From assembly GCA_021776915.1 (NCBI GenBank), contig JAIQZU010000054.1, forward strand, positions 1 through 64,000: DNA of 64,000 nt. The letters are read 5' to 3'. The notes below the pieces were generated by a model. It saw nothing but the letters and a program-made list of their open reading frames with translations. It was not told the DNA's origin and did not search any database. Positions 11,093 to 61,121 of this stretch are shown here, piece by piece. The stretch is from Candidatus Scalindua sp. (GTDB lineage Bacteria > Planctomycetota > Brocadiia > Brocadiales > Scalinduaceae). Each line of letters starts with the position of its first letter. Positions within the stretch are counted from its first letter, which is position 1. The position numbers were made by a program, and so were the translations under genes.

Positions 11093-12238
11093 ATGGGTTT
11101 AAGAATACAAAACAATATCGCAGCTTTAAATACACACAAAAATCTTGCAACGGCAGATAGAGGTCTTTCAAAATCTTTGGAAAGATTGTCTTCAGGTTAT
11201 AGAATTAACAAGGCGTCAGACGATTCTGCCGGTCTTGCTATATCTATGAGATTCAGGTCTCAGATAAGGGCTTTGACACAGGGCGCCAGTAACGCAAGCC
11301 AGGCACAATCCTTGTTACAGGTAGCAGAGGGTGCTGCAGACCAGGTAACAAACATCCTGCAGAGGATGAAGGAACTTGCAACGCAGGCTGCATCTGACAG
11401 TACTCCAGGTTCTGACCGTACAAAAATCAATAATGAAATTACCGACCTCGAGGCTGAAATCGACAGGATCGTTAATTCTACTAAATATGCTGGAAGCACA
11501 CTTGTCGATGGTAGTTTTGGTTCTACTGCCTTAAGTGCTGCTGGAAACTTGACTGCTGGTAGTTTACAGATAAATTCCGTTGATGTGTCAGGCGCTACTT
11601 CTGGTGGAGCTTATACTGTTACAATTACTTCTTCTGGTAGTGCAAAGAATATGACGATTATAGAAACAGGTGTAGCAACACAGACCATATCAGTCACTGA
11701 CGGTTCTATCGGCGCTAGCGATACCAAGGTACTGGATTTCTCAACTTTGGGTATTAAGGTAACGGTTGATGGAGGCTATGATGCTGCTGGTAACACTGCA
11801 GCCGCTGCTGCTACTACAACTACTACAGCTACCTCTGCAACTTTCCAGCTTGGAAATGAGAACAATGCTGACAACAGAATTGCCTTCAGCCTTACAGACT
11901 TAAACCTGGCAGTTCTGGCAAATGGTAGTACAGCAAATGTTGCAACAGATACTTTAGCCGGCGCACAATCTGCTTTAGCTACAATTGATACTGCTATTGA
12001 CACTGTAGCAACTGCCCGTGCAAGTATCGGTTCTGTACAAAACAGAATGGGATTTGCAGGTGCAAACATCTCTACAAGTCTTGAAAACTTGACTGCTGCT
12101 GAATCTGTAATTCGCGATGCTGATCTGGCATTCGAAACAGTAGGTTTCACCAAGAACCAGATATTGTTACAAGCTGGTACTGCAATGCTTGCCCAGGCTA
12201 ATGCTGCGCCACAGTCAGTATTAAGTCTTCTCGGATAA
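11093..12238 (+). CDS. fliC: flagellin
   Basis: The filament subunit, 381 residues. The conserved N-terminal D0/D1 region (MGLRIQNNIAALN, LSSGYRINKASDDSAGLAIS) and C-terminal D1/D0 region (GSVQNRMGFAGANI, ESVIRDADLAFE, QANAAPQSVLSLL) are complete; the Ser/Thr/Ala-rich centre (about 150-270) is the variable surface domain and could carry O-glycans. ATG 11093 is chosen because it follows a strong ribosome site (aaggaggattt) and gives the family N-terminus; an upstream in-frame start at 11045 would add 16 atypical residues. It is driven by the sigma-28 promoter at 10828 and followed by a terminator. The flanking glycosyltransferases are the obvious candidates to modify it (inference). Confidence 0.97.
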   Translation: MGLRIQNNIAALNTHKNLATADRGLSKSLERLSSGYRINKASDDSAGLAISMRFRSQIRALTQGASNASQAQSLLQVAEGAADQVTNILQRMKELATQAASDSTPGSDRTKINNEITDLEAEIDRIVNSTKYAGSTLVDGSFGSTALSAAGNLTAGSLQINSVDVSGATSGGAYTVTITSSGSAKNMTIIETGVATQTISVTDGSIGASDTKVLDFSTLGIKVTVDGGYDAAGNTAAAAATTTTTATSATFQLGNENNADNRIAFSLTDLNLAVLANGSTANVATDTLAGAQSALATIDTAIDTVATARASIGSVQNRMGFAGANISTSLENLTAAESVIRDADLAFETVGFTKNQILLQAGTAMLAQANAAPQSVLSLLG

Positions 12239-12367: not shown

Positions 12368-12509
12368 TGTAAACACATCAAATCAATTGGTAATAAACAG
12401 TTCATAGTGTGCAAAATTTACCCTATGAGTTTTAAAATACATACCGGCCTGCATGCTATTAGTTGTTGATGTATTTATACTTAAAATATTATTGGTTTAT
12501 CAAATATTT

Positions 12510-12525
12510 TGGTACAAATATTGCA
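12510..12525 (+). promoter_or_regulatory. sigma-54 promoter of the first WYCxYAT gene
   Basis: TGGTAC-AAATA-TTGCA matches the sigma-54 consensus TGGCAC-N5-TTGC with the invariant GG and GC ten bases apart (12511-12512 and 12523-12524). It lies about 37 bases before the gene start. Confidence 0.88.
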
Positions 12526-12561: not shown

Positions 12562-12786
12562 ATGGAAAACAATTTGAATAAAAGAAACTTTATAAATTGG
12601 TACTGCTGTTATGCTACTCCGGAAGAGATTGAAAAGGCAGAGCAAACTAACAAAGCGGCTATAAACAGATTAGTTAGTGAATATTCATATGAAATCGATA
12701 AGATAAAAACGACAAAATGTTTTTATGACTCTTTGCCATTGCCAAAAGGAGTATTGCCGGAGTTTCTTCCCCTTGATTGCTTTTGA
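12562..12786 (+). CDS. small WYCxYAT protein, paralogue A
   Basis: A 74-residue protein of unknown function. Residues 8-55 (NFINWYCCYATPEEIEKA, then AINRLVSEYSYEIDKI) align without gaps to the 60-residue protein at 17345, sharing F-x-x-W-Y-C-x-Y-A-T, an acidic turn, an N-A motif and RL-x-EYS-EI. It is predicted helical, with no signal peptide or membrane span. The two paralogues lie before fliD and before fliS respectively, and both have sigma-54 promoters with near-identical cores. A weak ribosome site (aaaggata) precedes the ATG. A role tied to filament cap or export timing is inference only; I do not recognise the family. Confidence 0.8.
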   Translation: MENNLNKRNFINWYCCYATPEEIEKAEQTNKAAINRLVSEYSYEIDKIKTTKCFYDSLPLPKGVLPEFLPLDCF

Positions 12787-13130
12787 AATTTTCAAGTTAG
12801 GTCGCTATCGCGACAAAATTCCTCGACTCCGCTCGGGATGACATCACACTGAGTGGAGTCGAAGTGTGATCAATATTATTGAAATTCCTGTGCATCAAGT
12901 TAAGTCGCTATCGCGACAAAAGACTATCCTTCGACTCCGCTCAGGATGACGTCACACTGAGCGGAGTCGAAGTGTTATCAACATTGAAATTCCTATGCAC
13001 TAAATTAGGCTGCCTAAAGGCAGCAACTCTTAAAGAGAATATCTAATAATGAATTCTAAATTCGATATTCGACGTTCAATATTCATTATTCAATTATTAT
13101 TGAAATTTCTATACATAAATTTAATTAAGG
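12787..13130. repeat. modular palindrome array, locus 1 (before fliD)
   Basis: Three modules in a row, each ending in the junction TTGAAATTCCTATGCAT-type followed by AAGTTAGG-type bases (12783-12802, 12880-12904, 12985-13011, and a degenerate one at 13097-13122). Modules 1 and 2 start with the hairpin gtcgctatcgcgac and contain the stem cttcgactccgctca/tgagcggagtcgaag. Module 3 starts with ctgcctaaaggcagc and contains gaataatgaa/ttcattattc-type arms. No gene. The fliD ribosome site lies just past it. Confidence 0.85.
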
Positions 13131-13137
13131 GTGTTAA

Positions 13138-16100
13138 ATGGCAGCTACAGGTTCCATAGGTGGTTTGGTTTCGGGTCTTGATACTGCCAGTTTAATAGAT
13201 CAGCTTATTTCAGTTAGCAGAAAGCGCATTGATGTTGTCGTTGCCAATCAGACTGAAAAAAGTGGTAAAATAGAGGCCTTTCAAGGCTTTAATTTACAGC
13301 TGACAGACCTTCAATCAAGTGCAAAGACACTCAAAGATAATGATACGTTCAATGTCTTTAAAATAGCAACTTCAACAGATTCAGCCACTTACTCGGCTGA
13401 CAATCTTGCCTCTATCACAACTACAGCCGATGCCAGTCCGGGCACACATAAAATAGAATTCACAGCAGGATCACAGTTAGCAAAGGCAAGACAAATATCA
13501 TCACAAAGCTATAGCGACTTCGACACAACCGCACTGAACCTCTCCGGCGAGATTCTTATAAACGGCAAGGTAATAAAAATCGTATCTACGGATAAGCTTG
13601 AAGATATCACAGTCAAGATTAACAATGCCAATTCCGGTACTAATGCAACCAAAGTAACCGCAACCATAATATCCGTATCAACCACTGATAATCGCCTGAT
13701 CCTGACAAGTAACGATACGGGTGAAGACAAATTTAACATACTTTCTGCCTCTGCCACTGACATACTGACATCATTAGGATTTACCAGTGGTGACACCATC
13801 AAGAATACAACAAGCGATGGTGCAGAATCTGATGAATTCTCCAATAGTCAAACTGCTGTTGGGTCACTGCTCGGCTTGACAAATCCTCAGAGTAATACGG
13901 TAACTATTGCGGGGCAAGCCCTTGCCATAGACCTTTCCACGCAATCTCTAACCACAATTGCCGGCAACATCAATGCTCTCACAAATGTAACTGCTGCTGT
14001 CGTGCCTACGACTACTAATGGTGTGACAACGTATAAGATCGACATCAGCGGCACCACCTCTTTTACAGATGCCGACAACATACTCGAGTCACTGGGGATA
14101 ATTGAAGGAGTTCAAAGTTCAGTTGCAGAATCACATACCACCTCATCAGCAAATAATAAAATAAGTGGAGGTGCAGGTGCAATCCTCAGCACAACAACTT
14201 TTGATGACATAGACACGGGCGGTGGCGCTAATAATGTTGCCGACACTGATCAAATAACTATATCAGGAACAGACCATGATGGGAATGCCGTCACCGGAAC
14301 CTATACTATTACTGACAGGACGACCGACACCATAGGTGATCTGCTTACAGAAATACAAAACGTATTTAAAAGCGTTGATCCCACAAACACGGTTACTGCA
14401 TCAGTAAATGGCAGTGGACAGATTGTAGTCACTGACGACTGGGGTGGAGACAGCCAAATCACTATTAACATAATAGCAAAAAATAATGCGAGCAATGGTA
14501 CCCTTGATTTTGGCACAGTTACGACAACTACAGAAGGCTACTCAATGGAAGTTACGGCCGGACAGGATGCAAAAGTAAAGATCGACGGTGTTAACGTCAT
14601 ACGAAGCAGTAATTCAATAGATGACGTCATAAGCGGGGCTACCTTAAATATAGCCAGGGTGGAAGCAGGCTCTACAGTAGACGTAAACATATCCAGAGAT
14701 ACAGACAGTATAAAAACCAGTGTAAATGGTTTTATAACTCAATATAACAGTATTATTGATTTTGTTAACAAGGAATTCAAATTTAATGAGGATCTGGAAA
14801 GCGCCGGTACTCTCTCAGGTGAAACCACCTTATCCTCAATTAAAACCAGTATACAGTCAATAATCACTGGAACCATACCTTTGCTTCCAGCAGGTGAAAA
14901 CGCCATTTCCCTGATTGGAATAACTTCTGATAGTGACGGTAAATTGTCACTGAAGGACAGCACCTTCCTGGCTGAAATCAATTCCGACTTCAATAAAGTG
15001 AAGAGGATGTTTATTGCTGAAGGTACTGCCACAAACAGTGAAGTCACGTACATAGGACATACAAAAAGGACATCAGCAGGAGATTACGACGTAAATATTA
15101 CTCAGGCGGCAGCCAAGGCCGGTGAGACGGGTGAACTTGACCTGAGCAGTGGACTGGGGGCAGGAAAACAGGAGACCATTAGAATTACGGACACTGCCAG
15201 CGGCAGGATAGCAACCATAACCCTTGACGGAGATGACACAACCGGCAACTCCATAGACAATATAGTAAGTACAATCAATTCAGAACTCGATACAGAAACC
15301 ACAGAGGCTCTTGCAGGAAGTGTGGCAAATACTGCAATCTCCACAGGTTTGGCAATTACATCAAGTATCAAATTTAATGATATTACCGGAGCCGGACTCT
15401 CAAACAACGACACAATCACTTATACCGGTACAACACGTCAGGGAATAGCCGTAAACGGCTCGTATCAAATCAGTGATGTTACTACAAATACTGTCCAGAA
15501 TTTCCTCTCTGCAATAGAAGATGATTATGGTAATGCCGTGTCAGCGACAATTAACAGCACCGGAAATATTGTTTTAACAGACAATACAATCGGAGACAGT
15601 CTGCTATCTATTACCATAACAGAGCCTGCCAGCCTGGACTTTGGCACAGTATTGGCAACAAATACCGGAGGTGTGTCGGGTAGATATGCGATGGAGATTA
15701 CTGCGTCTAAAAATGCAAGCAATCAACTTGTAATCACAAATGACAATTATGGAAGCGCTCAGGGTTTTACAATAGCCCAGGTAGCCGGCACCAACCCTGC
15801 GGCTGGTAATGAGGTATTAACAGGTAGTTTGGCAAATACATTGACAGCTGGGGGTAGTATTGTTGCTGGATCTACTTTTGGCGCTATCAATACAACGGGA
15901 GGCCCGGGAAACGATATAACCAATACAGCCGTCATAAGCTACTCCGGTAAGGATAACGGAGGCACTGCAAAATCAGGTAGCTACACAATTGCAGATAAGT
16001 CCACTAATACTGTACAAAATATGCTTACTCAGATAGAAACGGATTTCGGCCTCACCGGTGGAAGTTTAACTATTTCAGGCGGCAAGATTGTGGTCACCGA

Positions 16101-16995
16101 TGACACCACAGGAGTCAGCCAGTTGGGTATCACCTTTACCTTTGATAAAAATGCCGGAAGTCTAGGCTTTGGCACCTTTGCATCACAGTATACGGGAATA
16201 GCAAACGGAGTTGAAGCTGGTATAGACGTTGCGGGCACCATAAACGGTGAGGCGGCAACAGGCACAGGACAGCTCTTAAAAGGTGATAAACCAGGTACCG
16301 GAGAAACATCCAGTATCGAAGGACTGGCAATAAAGGTTACGTCCACAACTGAATCACTGATTGGCAGTGTGGCAAATACTACCGATGGAACTACCGCAAT
16401 CACCAGCGCTACCGCATTTTCAGGAATAAACGGCGCCAGTGTTGTGGTCAATGATACTATCACAATATCGGGAAAAAAGCATGATGGAACACCTGTAAAC
16501 TATATTTACACAATAAATCCTACCTCTACCACGGTAGACAACCTGTTAACCAGCATTGAATCTAATTTTGGATTGGGCGCAACCGGCGCTACAATAGATT
16601 CCAATGGAAAGATTTCGATAAGCGATACCTTTACCGGTGACAGCCAGCTGAGTATCACATTAACAGAGAATAACGAAGGCGCCGGTAGTCTTAATTTCGG
16701 CGCCATAACTCCCGGCGCCAAGGATACAACAAAACTGACAATGGGAGTTGCCGAGACAATGTATAATAAACTCCTTGGATTTACAGATTCAATTGACGGA
16801 CTGGTCACCATCAGAATAGATGGTCTCGGTGACACAGTCGAAAATCTGCAGGAAACAATAGACGGTATGAATGAAAGGCTGGCAATGGAATCATTACAGT
16901 TAAATAACAAATTTGTTCAACTGGAACTAAATCTGTCAAGACTGCAAAATGTAAGCAGCTTCCTGGCAGCACAACTCAGCCAGTTATCCAAATAA
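13138..16995 (+). CDS. fliD: flagellar filament cap protein FliD, enlarged
   Basis: The hook-associated protein 2 caps the growing filament and inserts flagellin. The N-terminal region (GGLVSGLDTASLIDQLISV, residues 8-26) and the C-terminal coiled region (ENLQETIDGMNERLAMESLQLNNKF, ending in LAAQLSQLSK) are canonical FliD_N and FliD_C. At 1285 residues it is about twice or more the usual 450-650. The excess is mainly four divergent copies of one domain of about 120 residues (nt 14110-14530, 15307-15665, 15811-16190, 16353-16710) with the shared pattern GSVANT, TITISG, TTNTVQNLLTxIE, DxxxGDSQLSIT and LxFGT. These should form the outward-facing domains of the cap. A modest ribosome site (aagggtgtta) precedes ATG 13138. 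Confidence 0.95.
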   Translation: MAATGSIGGLVSGLDTASLIDQLISVSRKRIDVVVANQTEKSGKIEAFQGFNLQLTDLQSSAKTLKDNDTFNVFKIATSTDSATYSADNLASITTTADASPGTHKIEFTAGSQLAKARQISSQSYSDFDTTALNLSGEILINGKVIKIVSTDKLEDITVKINNANSGTNATKVTATIISVSTTDNRLILTSNDTGEDKFNILSASATDILTSLGFTSGDTIKNTTSDGAESDEFSNSQTAVGSLLGLTNPQSNTVTIAGQALAIDLSTQSLTTIAGNINALTNVTAAVVPTTTNGVTTYKIDISGTTSFTDADNILESLGIIEGVQSSVAESHTTSSANNKISGGAGAILSTTTFDDIDTGGGANNVADTDQITISGTDHDGNAVTGTYTITDRTTDTIGDLLTEIQNVFKSVDPTNTVTASVNGSGQIVVTDDWGGDSQITINIIAKNNASNGTLDFGTVTTTTEGYSMEVTAGQDAKVKIDGVNVIRSSNSIDDVISGATLNIARVEAGSTVDVNISRDTDSIKTSVNGFITQYNSIIDFVNKEFKFNEDLESAGTLSGETTLSSIKTSIQSIITGTIPLLPAGENAISLIGITSDSDGKLSLKDSTFLAEINSDFNKVKRMFIAEGTATNSEVTYIGHTKRTSAGDYDVNITQAAAKAGETGELDLSSGLGAGKQETIRITDTASGRIATITLDGDDTTGNSIDNIVSTINSELDTETTEALAGSVANTAISTGLAITSSIKFNDITGAGLSNNDTITYTGTTRQGIAVNGSYQISDVTTNTVQNFLSAIEDDYGNAVSATINSTGNIVLTDNTIGDSLLSITITEPASLDFGTVLATNTGGVSGRYAMEITASKNASNQLVITNDNYGSAQGFTIAQVAGTNPAAGNEVLTGSLANTLTAGGSIVAGSTFGAINTTGGPGNDITNTAVISYSGKDNGGTAKSGSYTIADKSTNTVQNMLTQIETDFGLTGGSLTISGGKIVVTDDTTGVSQLGITFTFDKNAGSLGFGTFASQYTGIANGVEAGIDVAGTINGEAATGTGQLLKGDKPGTGETSSIEGLAIKVTSTTESLIGSVANTTDGTTAITSATAFSGINGASVVVNDTITISGKKHDGTPVNYIYTINPTSTTVDNLLTSIESNFGLGATGATIDSNGKISISDTFTGDSQLSITLTENNEGAGSLNFGAITPGAKDTTKLTMGVAETMYNKLLGFTDSIDGLVTIRIDGLGDTVENLQETIDGMNERLAMESLQLNNKFVQLELNLSRLQNVSSFLAAQLSQLSK
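14110..16710 (+). repeat. four divergent intragenic domain repeats in fliD
   Basis: Protein-level repeats at nt 14110-14530, 15307-15665, 15811-16190 and 16353-16710. Copies 2, 3 and 4 each open with GS(V/L)ANT, and all four share an ITISG-like strand, an L-x-x-I-E helix and a D-x-x-x-G-D/V-SQL strand. The first copy is separated from the others by FliD core sequence (about 14540-15060). Confidence 0.85.
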
Positions 16996-17264
16996 ACAGT
17001 ATAATTCCACTTTTCAGGTTTTTCACTATTTCAACGCCGAAACAAGTATATACCCGTTCCACATTCATTTTGTATTCTACAACCAAAATTTCAAGATTGA
17101 CCGGATGATTGCAGAAAAAAAATCAGTCATCCCAAAAAAGGAAAAAATAATCACTTTGTGTAAAAACTAACCACTGAATTTCCCGGGAATCAGACAAATA
17201 CTGGTTAATGTTTTATAACTGATTACAATACCACTACTTACCACAATTCCAAAATATATATTTT
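16996..17264. other. intergenic region after fliD
   Basis: AT-rich, no gene and no clear T-tailed terminator for fliD. The only recognisable signal is the sigma-54 promoter that follows at 17265. Confidence 0.5.
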
Positions 17265-17280
17265 TGGTACGATTATTGCG
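17265..17280 (+). promoter_or_regulatory. sigma-54 promoter of the second WYCxYAT gene and fliS
   Basis: TGGTAC-GATTA-TTGCG; GG (17266-17267) and GC (17278-17279) are ten bases apart. It shares the TTTTGGTAC context with the promoter at 12510. Start codon 65 bases downstream. Confidence 0.87.
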
Positions 17281-17344
17281 AATATATTGAGTGTTATAAA
17301 AATAGAAATAAAATTATGATCAATAAAAATGGGTACAAATCATT

Positions 17345-17530
17345 ATGTTGACCGATAAGGACATAGAAAAGCAGAATTTTCTCAGTTGGTACTGCATGTA
17401 TGCTACTTCAGATGACATTAGAATGGCAAAAACCAGTAACAACCCGGCAATGGGCAGACTAATTAACGAATATTCATTCGAAATCGAGAGGATTAATATG
17501 TCAAGAATCCTGCTTGAGGAAATTTTCTAG
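17345..17530 (+). CDS. small WYCxYAT protein, paralogue B
   Basis: A 61-residue protein homologous to the one at 12562: NFLSWYCMYATSDDIRMAKT, then AMGRLINEYSFEIERI. The last ten residues differ. The central Trp-Tyr-Cys and the EYS-EI segment are preserved, so the family constraint is on a short two-helix unit. It stands 22 bases before fliS and is probably co-transcribed with fliS and the FlgN-like gene from the sigma-54 promoter at 17265. The start ATG lacks an evident Shine-Dalgarno. Function unknown; not recognised. Confidence 0.78.
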   Translation: MLTDKDIEKQNFLSWYCMYATSDDIRMAKTSNNPAMGRLINEYSFEIERINMSRILLEEIF

Positions 17531-17552: not shown

Positions 17553-17978
17553 ATGAAACCACAAAATATTGATTCATACAAAAAGATGCAGATAGAAACT
17601 GCTGACCCGGCAACCTTGATCTTAATGCTATTTGACCGCGCAATTGTTTTATTAGATAAAGCAAAAAATGAGATCCTGGAAAAACAGTACGAGGAGAAAG
17701 GCTGTTCCCTGACAAAGGCGAACGAAATCATTGCTGAACTGGCAGCATCATTAGACATGGAAAAAGGCGGGGAAATAGCAACTTCCTTATCAAGATTATA
17801 CAACTTCGTAATACGTGAAATAATTGATGCAGATATAAACTTGAACACAAATGCAATAGATAATGCAAGAAGAATTGTGTCAGAGTTAAGAGAATCCTGG
17901 GTAAGCATAAAAGACTATCCAAACGTAGAACTACAAAACAGTGATACTGCCACTACAAAAGTGGATTTATCCGGTTAG
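17553..17978 (+). CDS. fliS: flagellin export chaperone FliS
   Basis: A 141-residue cytoplasmic chaperone that binds the flagellin C-terminus before export. Family features: an N-terminal Y-x-x-x-x-I-E-T-A-D segment (SYKKMQIETADPATLILMLFDRAI), the LSRLYNFVIREIIDADI helix and the IVSELRESW end. Length is normal. It follows the small WYCxYAT gene and precedes a FlgN-like gene, a typical filament-assembly grouping. The stop codon lies in the left arm of a hairpin at 17977. Confidence 0.93.
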   Translation: MKPQNIDSYKKMQIETADPATLILMLFDRAIVLLDKAKNEILEKQYEEKGCSLTKANEIIAELAASLDMEKGGEIATSLSRLYNFVIREIIDADINLNTNAIDNARRIVSELRESWVSIKDYPNVELQNSDTATTKVDLSG

Positions 17979-18056
17979 TCTCTAAGTCGACAATTTCCGG
18001 TCAAAAAAAGTATGAAATTGCCGACGTAGAGACTATTCTACCACACCTTCGGTGTG
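17977..18056. repeat. hairpins between fliS and the FlgN-like gene
   Basis: A 21-base inverted repeat, AGTCTCTAAGTCGACAATTTC (17977-17997) and its near-complement (18014-18034), overlaps the fliS stop. A small hairpin cacaccttcggtgtg (18042-18056) follows. No T-tract; it may limit read-through or stabilise the fliS 3' end. Confidence 0.65.
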
Positions 18057-18080
18057 TTTAAGGAAAACAACAAAGACTAC

Positions 18081-18557
18081 ATGGTATGTAAATCAAACAT
18101 TATGAAATATCAAAACTCACTCCATATTGAGGAAGTATTTTCTTATTTAATTCAAAAGAAGGAATATTACGAAGAGATCTTAAAACTAACAAAGAAACAA
18201 GCAGATATCATAAAATCAAGCAACACAAATGAACTGAATTCAATAATTACGGCAAAAGAAAAATATGTAAAAGACATCATACGTTTGGAAAAACTTAATA
18301 TTAAGATACAAGAAGAAATTATATCAAATCGGAAAACCCTTATATCAGATAAACGATTCAATTCATTACTAAAACAATTACAATCAGTAATTACTGAATT
18401 AATACATTACGATCAGGATAGCATTAGTTTATTGTCTTCTTCAATAGATAATACAAATACTAAAATTAATAACCTTAACAAAAGAAGAAGATCACAACAA
18501 TCAATGAGAGAATATGGTGGTAAGCGCCCACCCAGACTTGTAAACATCCTCCAGTAA
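18081..18557 (+). CDS. FlgN/FliT-like flagellar chaperone
   Basis: About 158 residues, almost entirely helical and highly charged. The pattern YEEILKLTKKQADIIKSSNTNELNSIITAKEKYV is typical of FlgN-family export chaperones for the hook-filament junction proteins FlgK and FlgL, which are not in this window. The C-terminal tail (RRRSQQSMREYGGKRPPRL) is basic and disordered. Several starts are possible (18054, 18081, 18099); 18081 is chosen as the Met after aaggaaaacaacaaagac, but this is not certain. Family assignment rests on pattern and on position after fliS. Confidence 0.65.
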   Translation: MVCKSNIMKYQNSLHIEEVFSYLIQKKEYYEEILKLTKKQADIIKSSNTNELNSIITAKEKYVKDIIRLEKLNIKIQEEIISNRKTLISDKRFNSLLKQLQSVITELIHYDQDSISLLSSSIDNTNTKINNLNKRRRSQQSMREYGGKRPPRLVNILQ

Positions 18558-60573: not shown

Positions 60574-60909
60574 CTACAGCAAACCGGAGTTCTTAATTGA
60601 CCTGGCAACTTCCTTAGTAACCGCATCACGGTCGTAAACACCAGCTTCTATACGGGCCTTAACATCCTTTATCTTTTCCTCCCTGATATCAGGCACCTTC
60701 TTAATTTCCGCCTTTAAGATCGACAGTCTTCTTTGTAACTCTTTGGCCTCAGTGGAAATTTCAACTTTATCTCCTTCTTTTGACACTTGCACTTCACTGG
60801 ACGCACCGGATGCCGCTTTTTTAACATCCCCGGGCTTTCCAAGATTTTGATTACCAAAAACCTTCCCAACCTGATTATTAGTAATTCCAGCTGTTTTATC
60901 TACAGACAT
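60574..60909 (-). CDS. flgM: anti-sigma-28 factor FlgM-like
   Basis: 111 residues. The C-terminal half has the FlgM pattern: DKVEISTEAKELQRRLSILKAEIKKV, PDIREEKIKDVKARIEAGVY, VTKEVARSI. The N-terminal half is disordered, as in FlgM, which is unfolded for export through the hook. ATG 60909 is chosen with ggagg seven bases in front; a TTG two codons earlier is less likely. It should hold FliA inactive until the hook is finished. A GCCGAT sequence 30-45 bases upstream resembles a sigma-28 -10 but lacks a good -35. Confidence 0.85.
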   Translation of the reverse strand: MSVDKTAGITNNQVGKVFGNQNLGKPGDVKKAASGASSEVQVSKEGDKVEISTEAKELQRRLSILKAEIKKVPDIREEKIKDVKARIEAGVYDRDAVTKEVARSIKNSGLL

Positions 60910-61121
60910 TTTCAAACCTCCAATCTAAACCTGAAATCGGCAATTTACTAAAGAAAAAGTATAATTCTGACACATATTCCTTCAAGCAAACATTGATTTG
61001 CGACAGTATTTATTATTAATATACAACCCTTTTGACTTCAACTTCAATACAAACTTCTAATGATAAACCTTTTATATCCTTTTCATAAAACTCTCCTGCG
61101 CTCACCCCTGTCAGGCAAGTG

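Follow-up and report, generated by a model that had tools for sequence, protein, structure and literature searches.

The two small genes analysed here lie in a 64,000-nt stretch of a Candidatus Scalindua genome (the window, in what follows, means this whole stretch), where each of them heads a unit of flagellar genes (Table 1). Hydrazine synthase is encoded in the same genome, which is therefore that of an anammox bacterium. Both open reading frames, described in the initial annotation as a pair of small proteins with shared motifs, are real, and BLASTP aligned their products with 37% identity and 72% positives over 57 aa (E 3e-18); they are referred to as the fliD-type and fliS-type members after the gene that each precedes. 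The first common motif, FxxWYCxYAT, was confirmed as proposed, but the second, originally written RL-x-EYS-EI, correctly reads RLxxEYSxEI, with two variable positions in its first half. The assignment of the neighbours as fliD, fliS and a FlgN-like gene agreed with Pfam in all three cases, and a gene located separately at 60574-60915 presumably encodes a FlgM-like protein, as judged by eye.

Table 1. Features of the two flagellar units and related elements; positions refer to the window unless a locus identifier is given.
Feature	Position	Strand	Remarks
Flagellin gene, upstream context	11093..12238	+	flagellin matches also 5' of the fliD-type gene in relatives
Sigma-54 (-24/-12) promoter TTTTGGTACAAATATTGC	12507..12524	+	5' of fliD-type gene; site in 11/14 orthologues (strict pattern)
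fliD-type family member, 74 aa	12562..12786	+	FINWYCCYAT...RLVSEYSYEI, plus C-terminal tail
Non-coding spacer, full of palindromic repeats	12787..13137	+	widens the distance from fliD-type gene to fliD
fliD, long form, 1285 aa	13138..16995	+	Pfam FliD_N and FliD_C
Sigma-54 promoter TTTTGGTACGATTATTGC	17262..17279	+	5' of fliS-type gene; site in 8/8 orthologues (strict pattern)
fliS-type family member, 61 aa	17345..17530	+	FLSWYCMYAT...RLINEYSFEI
fliS	17553..17978	+	Pfam FliS E 5e-35; 22 nt 3' of fliS-type small gene
FlgN-like export chaperone gene	18054..18557	+	Pfam FlgN E 1.3e-10
dcw leader element, 125 nt	L039:7603-7727 (G000:C78:19602-19726)		one locus per genome; 15 further orthologous sites
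Phage-borne family copies	L051:7234-7407, L089:677-985, L096, L097		

The order flagellin - [small] - fliD - [small] - fliS - flgN was found to be kept in other Scalindua genomes, and a small gene precedes fliD in 13 genomes and fliS in 8. In most relatives the fliD-type gene lies 19-61 nt from fliD, while in this genome the two are parted by two copies of a palindromic repeat element with a CACTGAGYGGAGTCGAAGTG core, which occurs in the window at 12818-12985, 21506, 36093 and 47630. Comparison with the G001 orthologues gave dN/dS values of 0.20 for the fliD-type and 0.14 for the fliS-type gene, and the range across the flagellar copies was 0.07-0.33, indicative of purifying selection and therefore of real proteins.

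That each small gene stands first in a sigma-54 unit, one before fliD and the other before fliS, was upheld, and the promoters are kept in relatives. Within the window, the pattern TTTTGGTAC-N4-ATTGC was matched with at most 2 mismatches only at the two promoter positions, and the looser TGGYAY-N5-TTGC occurred 7 times against 0.5 expected; across all 3.8 Mb of the genome, TTGGYAYN4ATTGC had 10 occurrences, against 0 on one strand and 1 on the other for a reversed-pattern control. Some orthologues missed by the strict pattern carry degenerate -24/-12 sites recognisable by eye. The extended promoter core said to be common to the pair is indeed matched by both window sites, but relatives do not share its four-T extension. 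Additional sigma-54-like sites were observed elsewhere in this genome, namely one 5' of a flgI-like gene (C32) and three identical copies of TTGGTATCACGATTGC (G000:C16:12404, G000:C16:17728 and G000:C21:48437), which stand 5' of cytochrome c-like, transporter-like and large oxidoreductase-like ORFs.

The proteins were also claimed to be unrecognised, and this held: searches of Pfam, NCBIfam and PHROG returned no fitting family, only scattered weak matches of which none but VIN3_C was common to many members, and the core had no significant match to the characterised families searched. Profile-profile comparison revealed no kinship with FliS, FlgN, flagellin, FliD, FtsL, GvpJ or GvpK, and no description of the family was retrieved by a literature search whose reach extended to few subscription papers. 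AlphaFold models of 79 sequences, with block-mean pLDDT of 85-97 for residues 1-50 and a low-confidence tail, placed helices at residues 2-17, 20-29, 31-40 and 42-57; the fliD-type model had a pLDDT of 83, and the copy found in the dcw cluster (see below) displayed a similar predicted pattern with a longer last helix. The family is predicted to consist of small, soluble, all-helical proteins. Foldseek returned no solved fold of weight (best E 9.2 and 3.8), nor did the VIA search. Across the family, the conserved core is NFxxWYxxYAT and LxxEYxxEI; the cysteine of WYC typifies flagellar and lone copies rather than all members. Mean net charge ranges by group from -3.5 to +3.6, several groups being acidic or neutral, a spread that suggests surfaces adapted to different protein partners rather than to nucleic acids.

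The one recurrent database resemblance concerns the VEL domain of the plant proteins VIN3, VRN5 and VEL1 (VIN3_C, PF23380), which polymerises head to tail (PMC7614096). If the FxxWYxxxAT helix were homologous to it, the copies could form dynamic assemblies that concentrate the products of their operons, a reading that we consider very unlikely. VEL domains were recovered from the PDB by a profile search (E 0.003-0.08), in which RQKFLTWYSLRATSQEIRVVKD was aligned with KrNFlnWYclYAtekeiekAkt and, in a shorter version, RQKFLTWYSLRATSQEIR with KrNFlnWYclYAtekeie; 8 of 28 members had a weak Pfam match to VIN3_C, more than to any other family, and the best VIN3_C match across 62 genomes was a family member. 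Both are small helical domains with FLxWYxLxATxxEI at a helix end. However, that best match reached 17.8 bits against a curated cut-off of 27 bits, the alignment spans only about 22 residues, and a keratin coiled coil scored equally well (E 0.0017), so the resemblance is taken as a lead only: the motif is suggestive, but the statistics are at noise level and homology was not accepted. The VEL fold is a four-helix up-down-up-down arrangement with the motif in its second helix; the helix preceding the motif appears to be absent from our family, which seems one helix shorter and has no other plant-type domains. Moreover, the position equivalent to the key VEL tail residue I575 is non-hydrophobic in the copies checked by eye, and VEL structures were not in the Foldseek result lists, although this does not exclude the fold.

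The two proteins are paralogues in a family that extends well beyond the flagellum. The window's genome has two members besides this pair, which brings the total to four: one lies in the dcw cluster, flanked by ftsI and murE, and the other directly 3' of dnaA, where it is not the first gene of its unit. Of 62 genomes from the anammox order, 50 carry members; these fall in family f1 (Scalindua) and family f5 (Brocadia, Jettenia, Kuenenia and Loosdrechtia), with one weak f4 match in addition. In a phylum sample, 33 of 392 genomes matched, 31 of them in f1 and f5 and 1 weakly in f4; the remaining match was weak and lay inside a 1402-residue open frame, so that this sample yielded no convincing match outside the anammox order. 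A scan of 84,980 species for the conserved pattern returned planctomycete records only. Nearly all f1 and f5 carriers, many of them without detectable fliD, have the dcw copy flanked by ftsI and murE, and no other seat of the family is as widespread. In the f2 genomes, several of which are anammox by hydrazine synthase, ftsI is directly followed by murE where inspected. Two f4 genomes have a short ORF after ftsI that ends in VQxYDVTLxIS, as do the dcw copies; the connection of f4 with dcw depends on position and on a weak match, whose E was 9.9e-5 when the genomes were searched and 0.03 with a profile made for this study. Given its range over f1 and f5, its nearly constant place between ftsI and murE and the f4 short ORF, the dcw copy is probably the family ancestor. 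Further copies stand between gvpJ-like and gvpK-like gas-vesicle genes in G034 and G040; others, judging gene names by eye, neighbour a GemA-like gene in Mu-like prophages of f5 hosts or viral contigs of anammox hosts. Lone fliS-clade copies in the Kuenenia-type genomes G026, G036 and G038 (L044, L073, L078) retain the sigma-54 site TGGCAYTATTATTGC; they lie between rarA and a sensor-like gene, with no client gene apparent. Copies are mostly closely spaced with same-strand neighbours, the distance to the next gene being -4 to 22 nt for fliS, 46-47 nt for gvpK and 1-40 nt for most murE.

In a tree of the 79 members, many forks stay open because the alignment has few columns. One clade (98/87) joins the fliD-type, fliS-type, lone sigma-54 and phage copies; a second (95/83) joins the f1 dcw and dnaA copies; and the gas-vesicle copies fall among the f5 dcw copies. 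On these sequence data, the flagellar pair is placed as one younger clade, and duplicates have probably moved from the dcw cluster to flagellar, replication and gas-vesicle genes. All groups tested are under purifying selection (dN/dS 0.07-0.42).

These distributions bear on the suggestion that the two proteins are dedicated to the flagellum, perhaps as an assembly-checkpoint or regulatory peptide. An association with fliD and fliS is confirmed for the flagellar subclade, which is kept with these genes in relatives. No fliD match was obtained in five Scalindua genomes (G002, G003, G005, G011 and G012); both flagellar copies are missing there, and the dcw copy is kept. Among the 36 genomes with FliD above the cut-off, the small gene lies upstream in all 13 whose FliD exceeds 1000 aa, including G039, which belongs to f5 and thus represents a second lineage. 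The conserved -24/-12 promoter is limited to the flagellar and lone copies, no such site being found upstream of the dcw, dnaA, gas-vesicle or phage copies tested. Only the flagellar small genes adjoin genes of export substrates. A checkpoint pair that evolved for cap and filament assembly, with all other copies derived from it, would account for the single flagellar clade and its conserved promoters. Nevertheless, the 23 genomes with FliD below 1000 aa (in every case <800 aa) lack a small gene ahead of fliD, and the dcw copy, the most probable ancestor, is far more widespread, occurring in genomes with no detectable fliD and in both anammox families; we therefore regard a checkpoint origin as unlikely. 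Hits scattered without a flagellar link were found for the whole family, though not for the flagellar subclade, and the ftsI-murE, dnaA, gas-vesicle and Mu-like prophage copies rule out a flagellum-specific family. A flagellar checkpoint is accordingly already refuted for the family as a whole, while the flagellar pair itself may still have a checkpoint or regulatory role.

A different explanation would be that the small proteins are autoregulators which bind the mRNA leader or operator of their own operon and tune the genes downstream. The small gene is often the first after a regulatory signal, either the sigma-54 promoter or, for the f1 dcw copy, a conserved structured leader. This leader, a hairpin element, has a column identity that averages 88% across 16 genomes; in the window's genome it folds with a z of -3.8, and three pairs show double changes. 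It lies between ftsI and the small gene, follows a strong Shine-Dalgarno-like stretch and ATG, and had no Rfam match near thresholds. The murE sub-operon may be regulated in cis by this candidate new leader. A leader peptide in it, MVKNAGR, was considered and discarded since a stop interrupts it in two genomes. An RNA leader common to all copies was discarded as well. The Scalindua dcw protein could bind the two hairpins that precede its gene; however, the element was found at no other copy, including those of the window, several groups are acidic or neutral, Pfam, NCBIfam and PHROG searches gave no helix-turn-helix or RNA-binding match, and the dnaA copy does not head its unit. Autoregulation of this kind thus appears unlikely.

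The mobility of some copies raises the further question of whether these are hitch-hiking or selfish genes, spread by phage or duplication and with little function specific to each operon. Besides the Mu-like prophage copies, G041 harbors a recent extra dcw-type copy at an unrelated locus (L165:8208-8513) with no obvious client gene, and G004 (L057, G004:C43) carries a tandem second fliD-type gene followed by a broken fliD start, from which it seems that [small gene + fliD] duplicates as a unit. Conversely, purifying selection acts in every tested group and orthologous positions are kept across genera and families; the phage copies, moreover, nest on long branches inside the flagellar clade and were therefore probably acquired from hosts. 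We consider mere hitch-hiking very improbable indeed. A phage origin of the family was also rejected, host-to-phage transfer being likelier: viral-contig scans gave two loci only, both matching Mu-like prophages of two genomes already in the set, and the phages collection gave no real family match.

The reading that we favour, albeit tentatively and with somewhat less than even confidence, is that of an operon-embedded adaptor, or assembly or timing regulator, which binds the product of its own operon. Each copy would act at the protein level on its own operon, being made just before or together with the operon's product. A common core combined with a diverged surface and tail suggests one interaction common to all copies and another specific to each operon: the core would bind itself or a single shared partner, and the surface and tail would bind the operon product, or its chaperone or assembly factor. 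In the flagellum, the pair could serve as a sigma-54-timed helper for FliD and for the export of flagellin by FliS/FlgN. As counterpoints to the adaptor reading, the dnaA copy follows dnaA, and the rarA-side and extra G041 copies have no evident client gene; position in an operon does not prove physical interaction.

Among known systems, the chaperones FliS, FlgN and FliT are likewise small, helical and encoded beside fliD and flagellin, and the family, predicted to be cytosolic too, might by analogy resemble them in role as a helper of FliD or FliS; however, it is about half their length, its domain also occurs at wall, replication and vesicle genes, and hhalign gave a probability of 0.1 against FliS/FlgN, with no such Pfam match in 28 members at E up to 1. 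The anti-sigma factor and checkpoint protein FlgM is also a small protein of the flagellar cluster, and these proteins too could time late assembly, but our family has no sequence match to it, forms a sigma-54-controlled pair and has relatives outside the flagellum. Small accessory ORFs of the dcw cluster (mraZ-rsmH-ftsL-ftsI-murE-murF-mraY-ftsW-murG), such as FtsL, share the genomic setting of the dcw copy, which differs in being hydrophilic (GRAVY -0.8), in its place between ftsI and murE and in having no FtsL similarity.

Going beyond the adaptor reading, all copies might share one partner or co-polymerise, perhaps by a VEL-like interface, with the paralogues competing for it. We regard such a hub as quite unlikely; were it true, anammox bacteria would couple replication, wall synthesis, motility and buoyancy, and the copy in Mu-like phages would be a decoy. 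Taken together, our results correct the notion of the pair as a flagellar specialty and describe a new, unannotated family. It is close to universal in two of the anammox families, has its anchor among the wall genes and has been put to further use at the flagellum, dnaA and gas vesicles; it offers a concrete way into the question of how wall growth, replication and motility are coordinated in bacteria whose cell plan is unusual.
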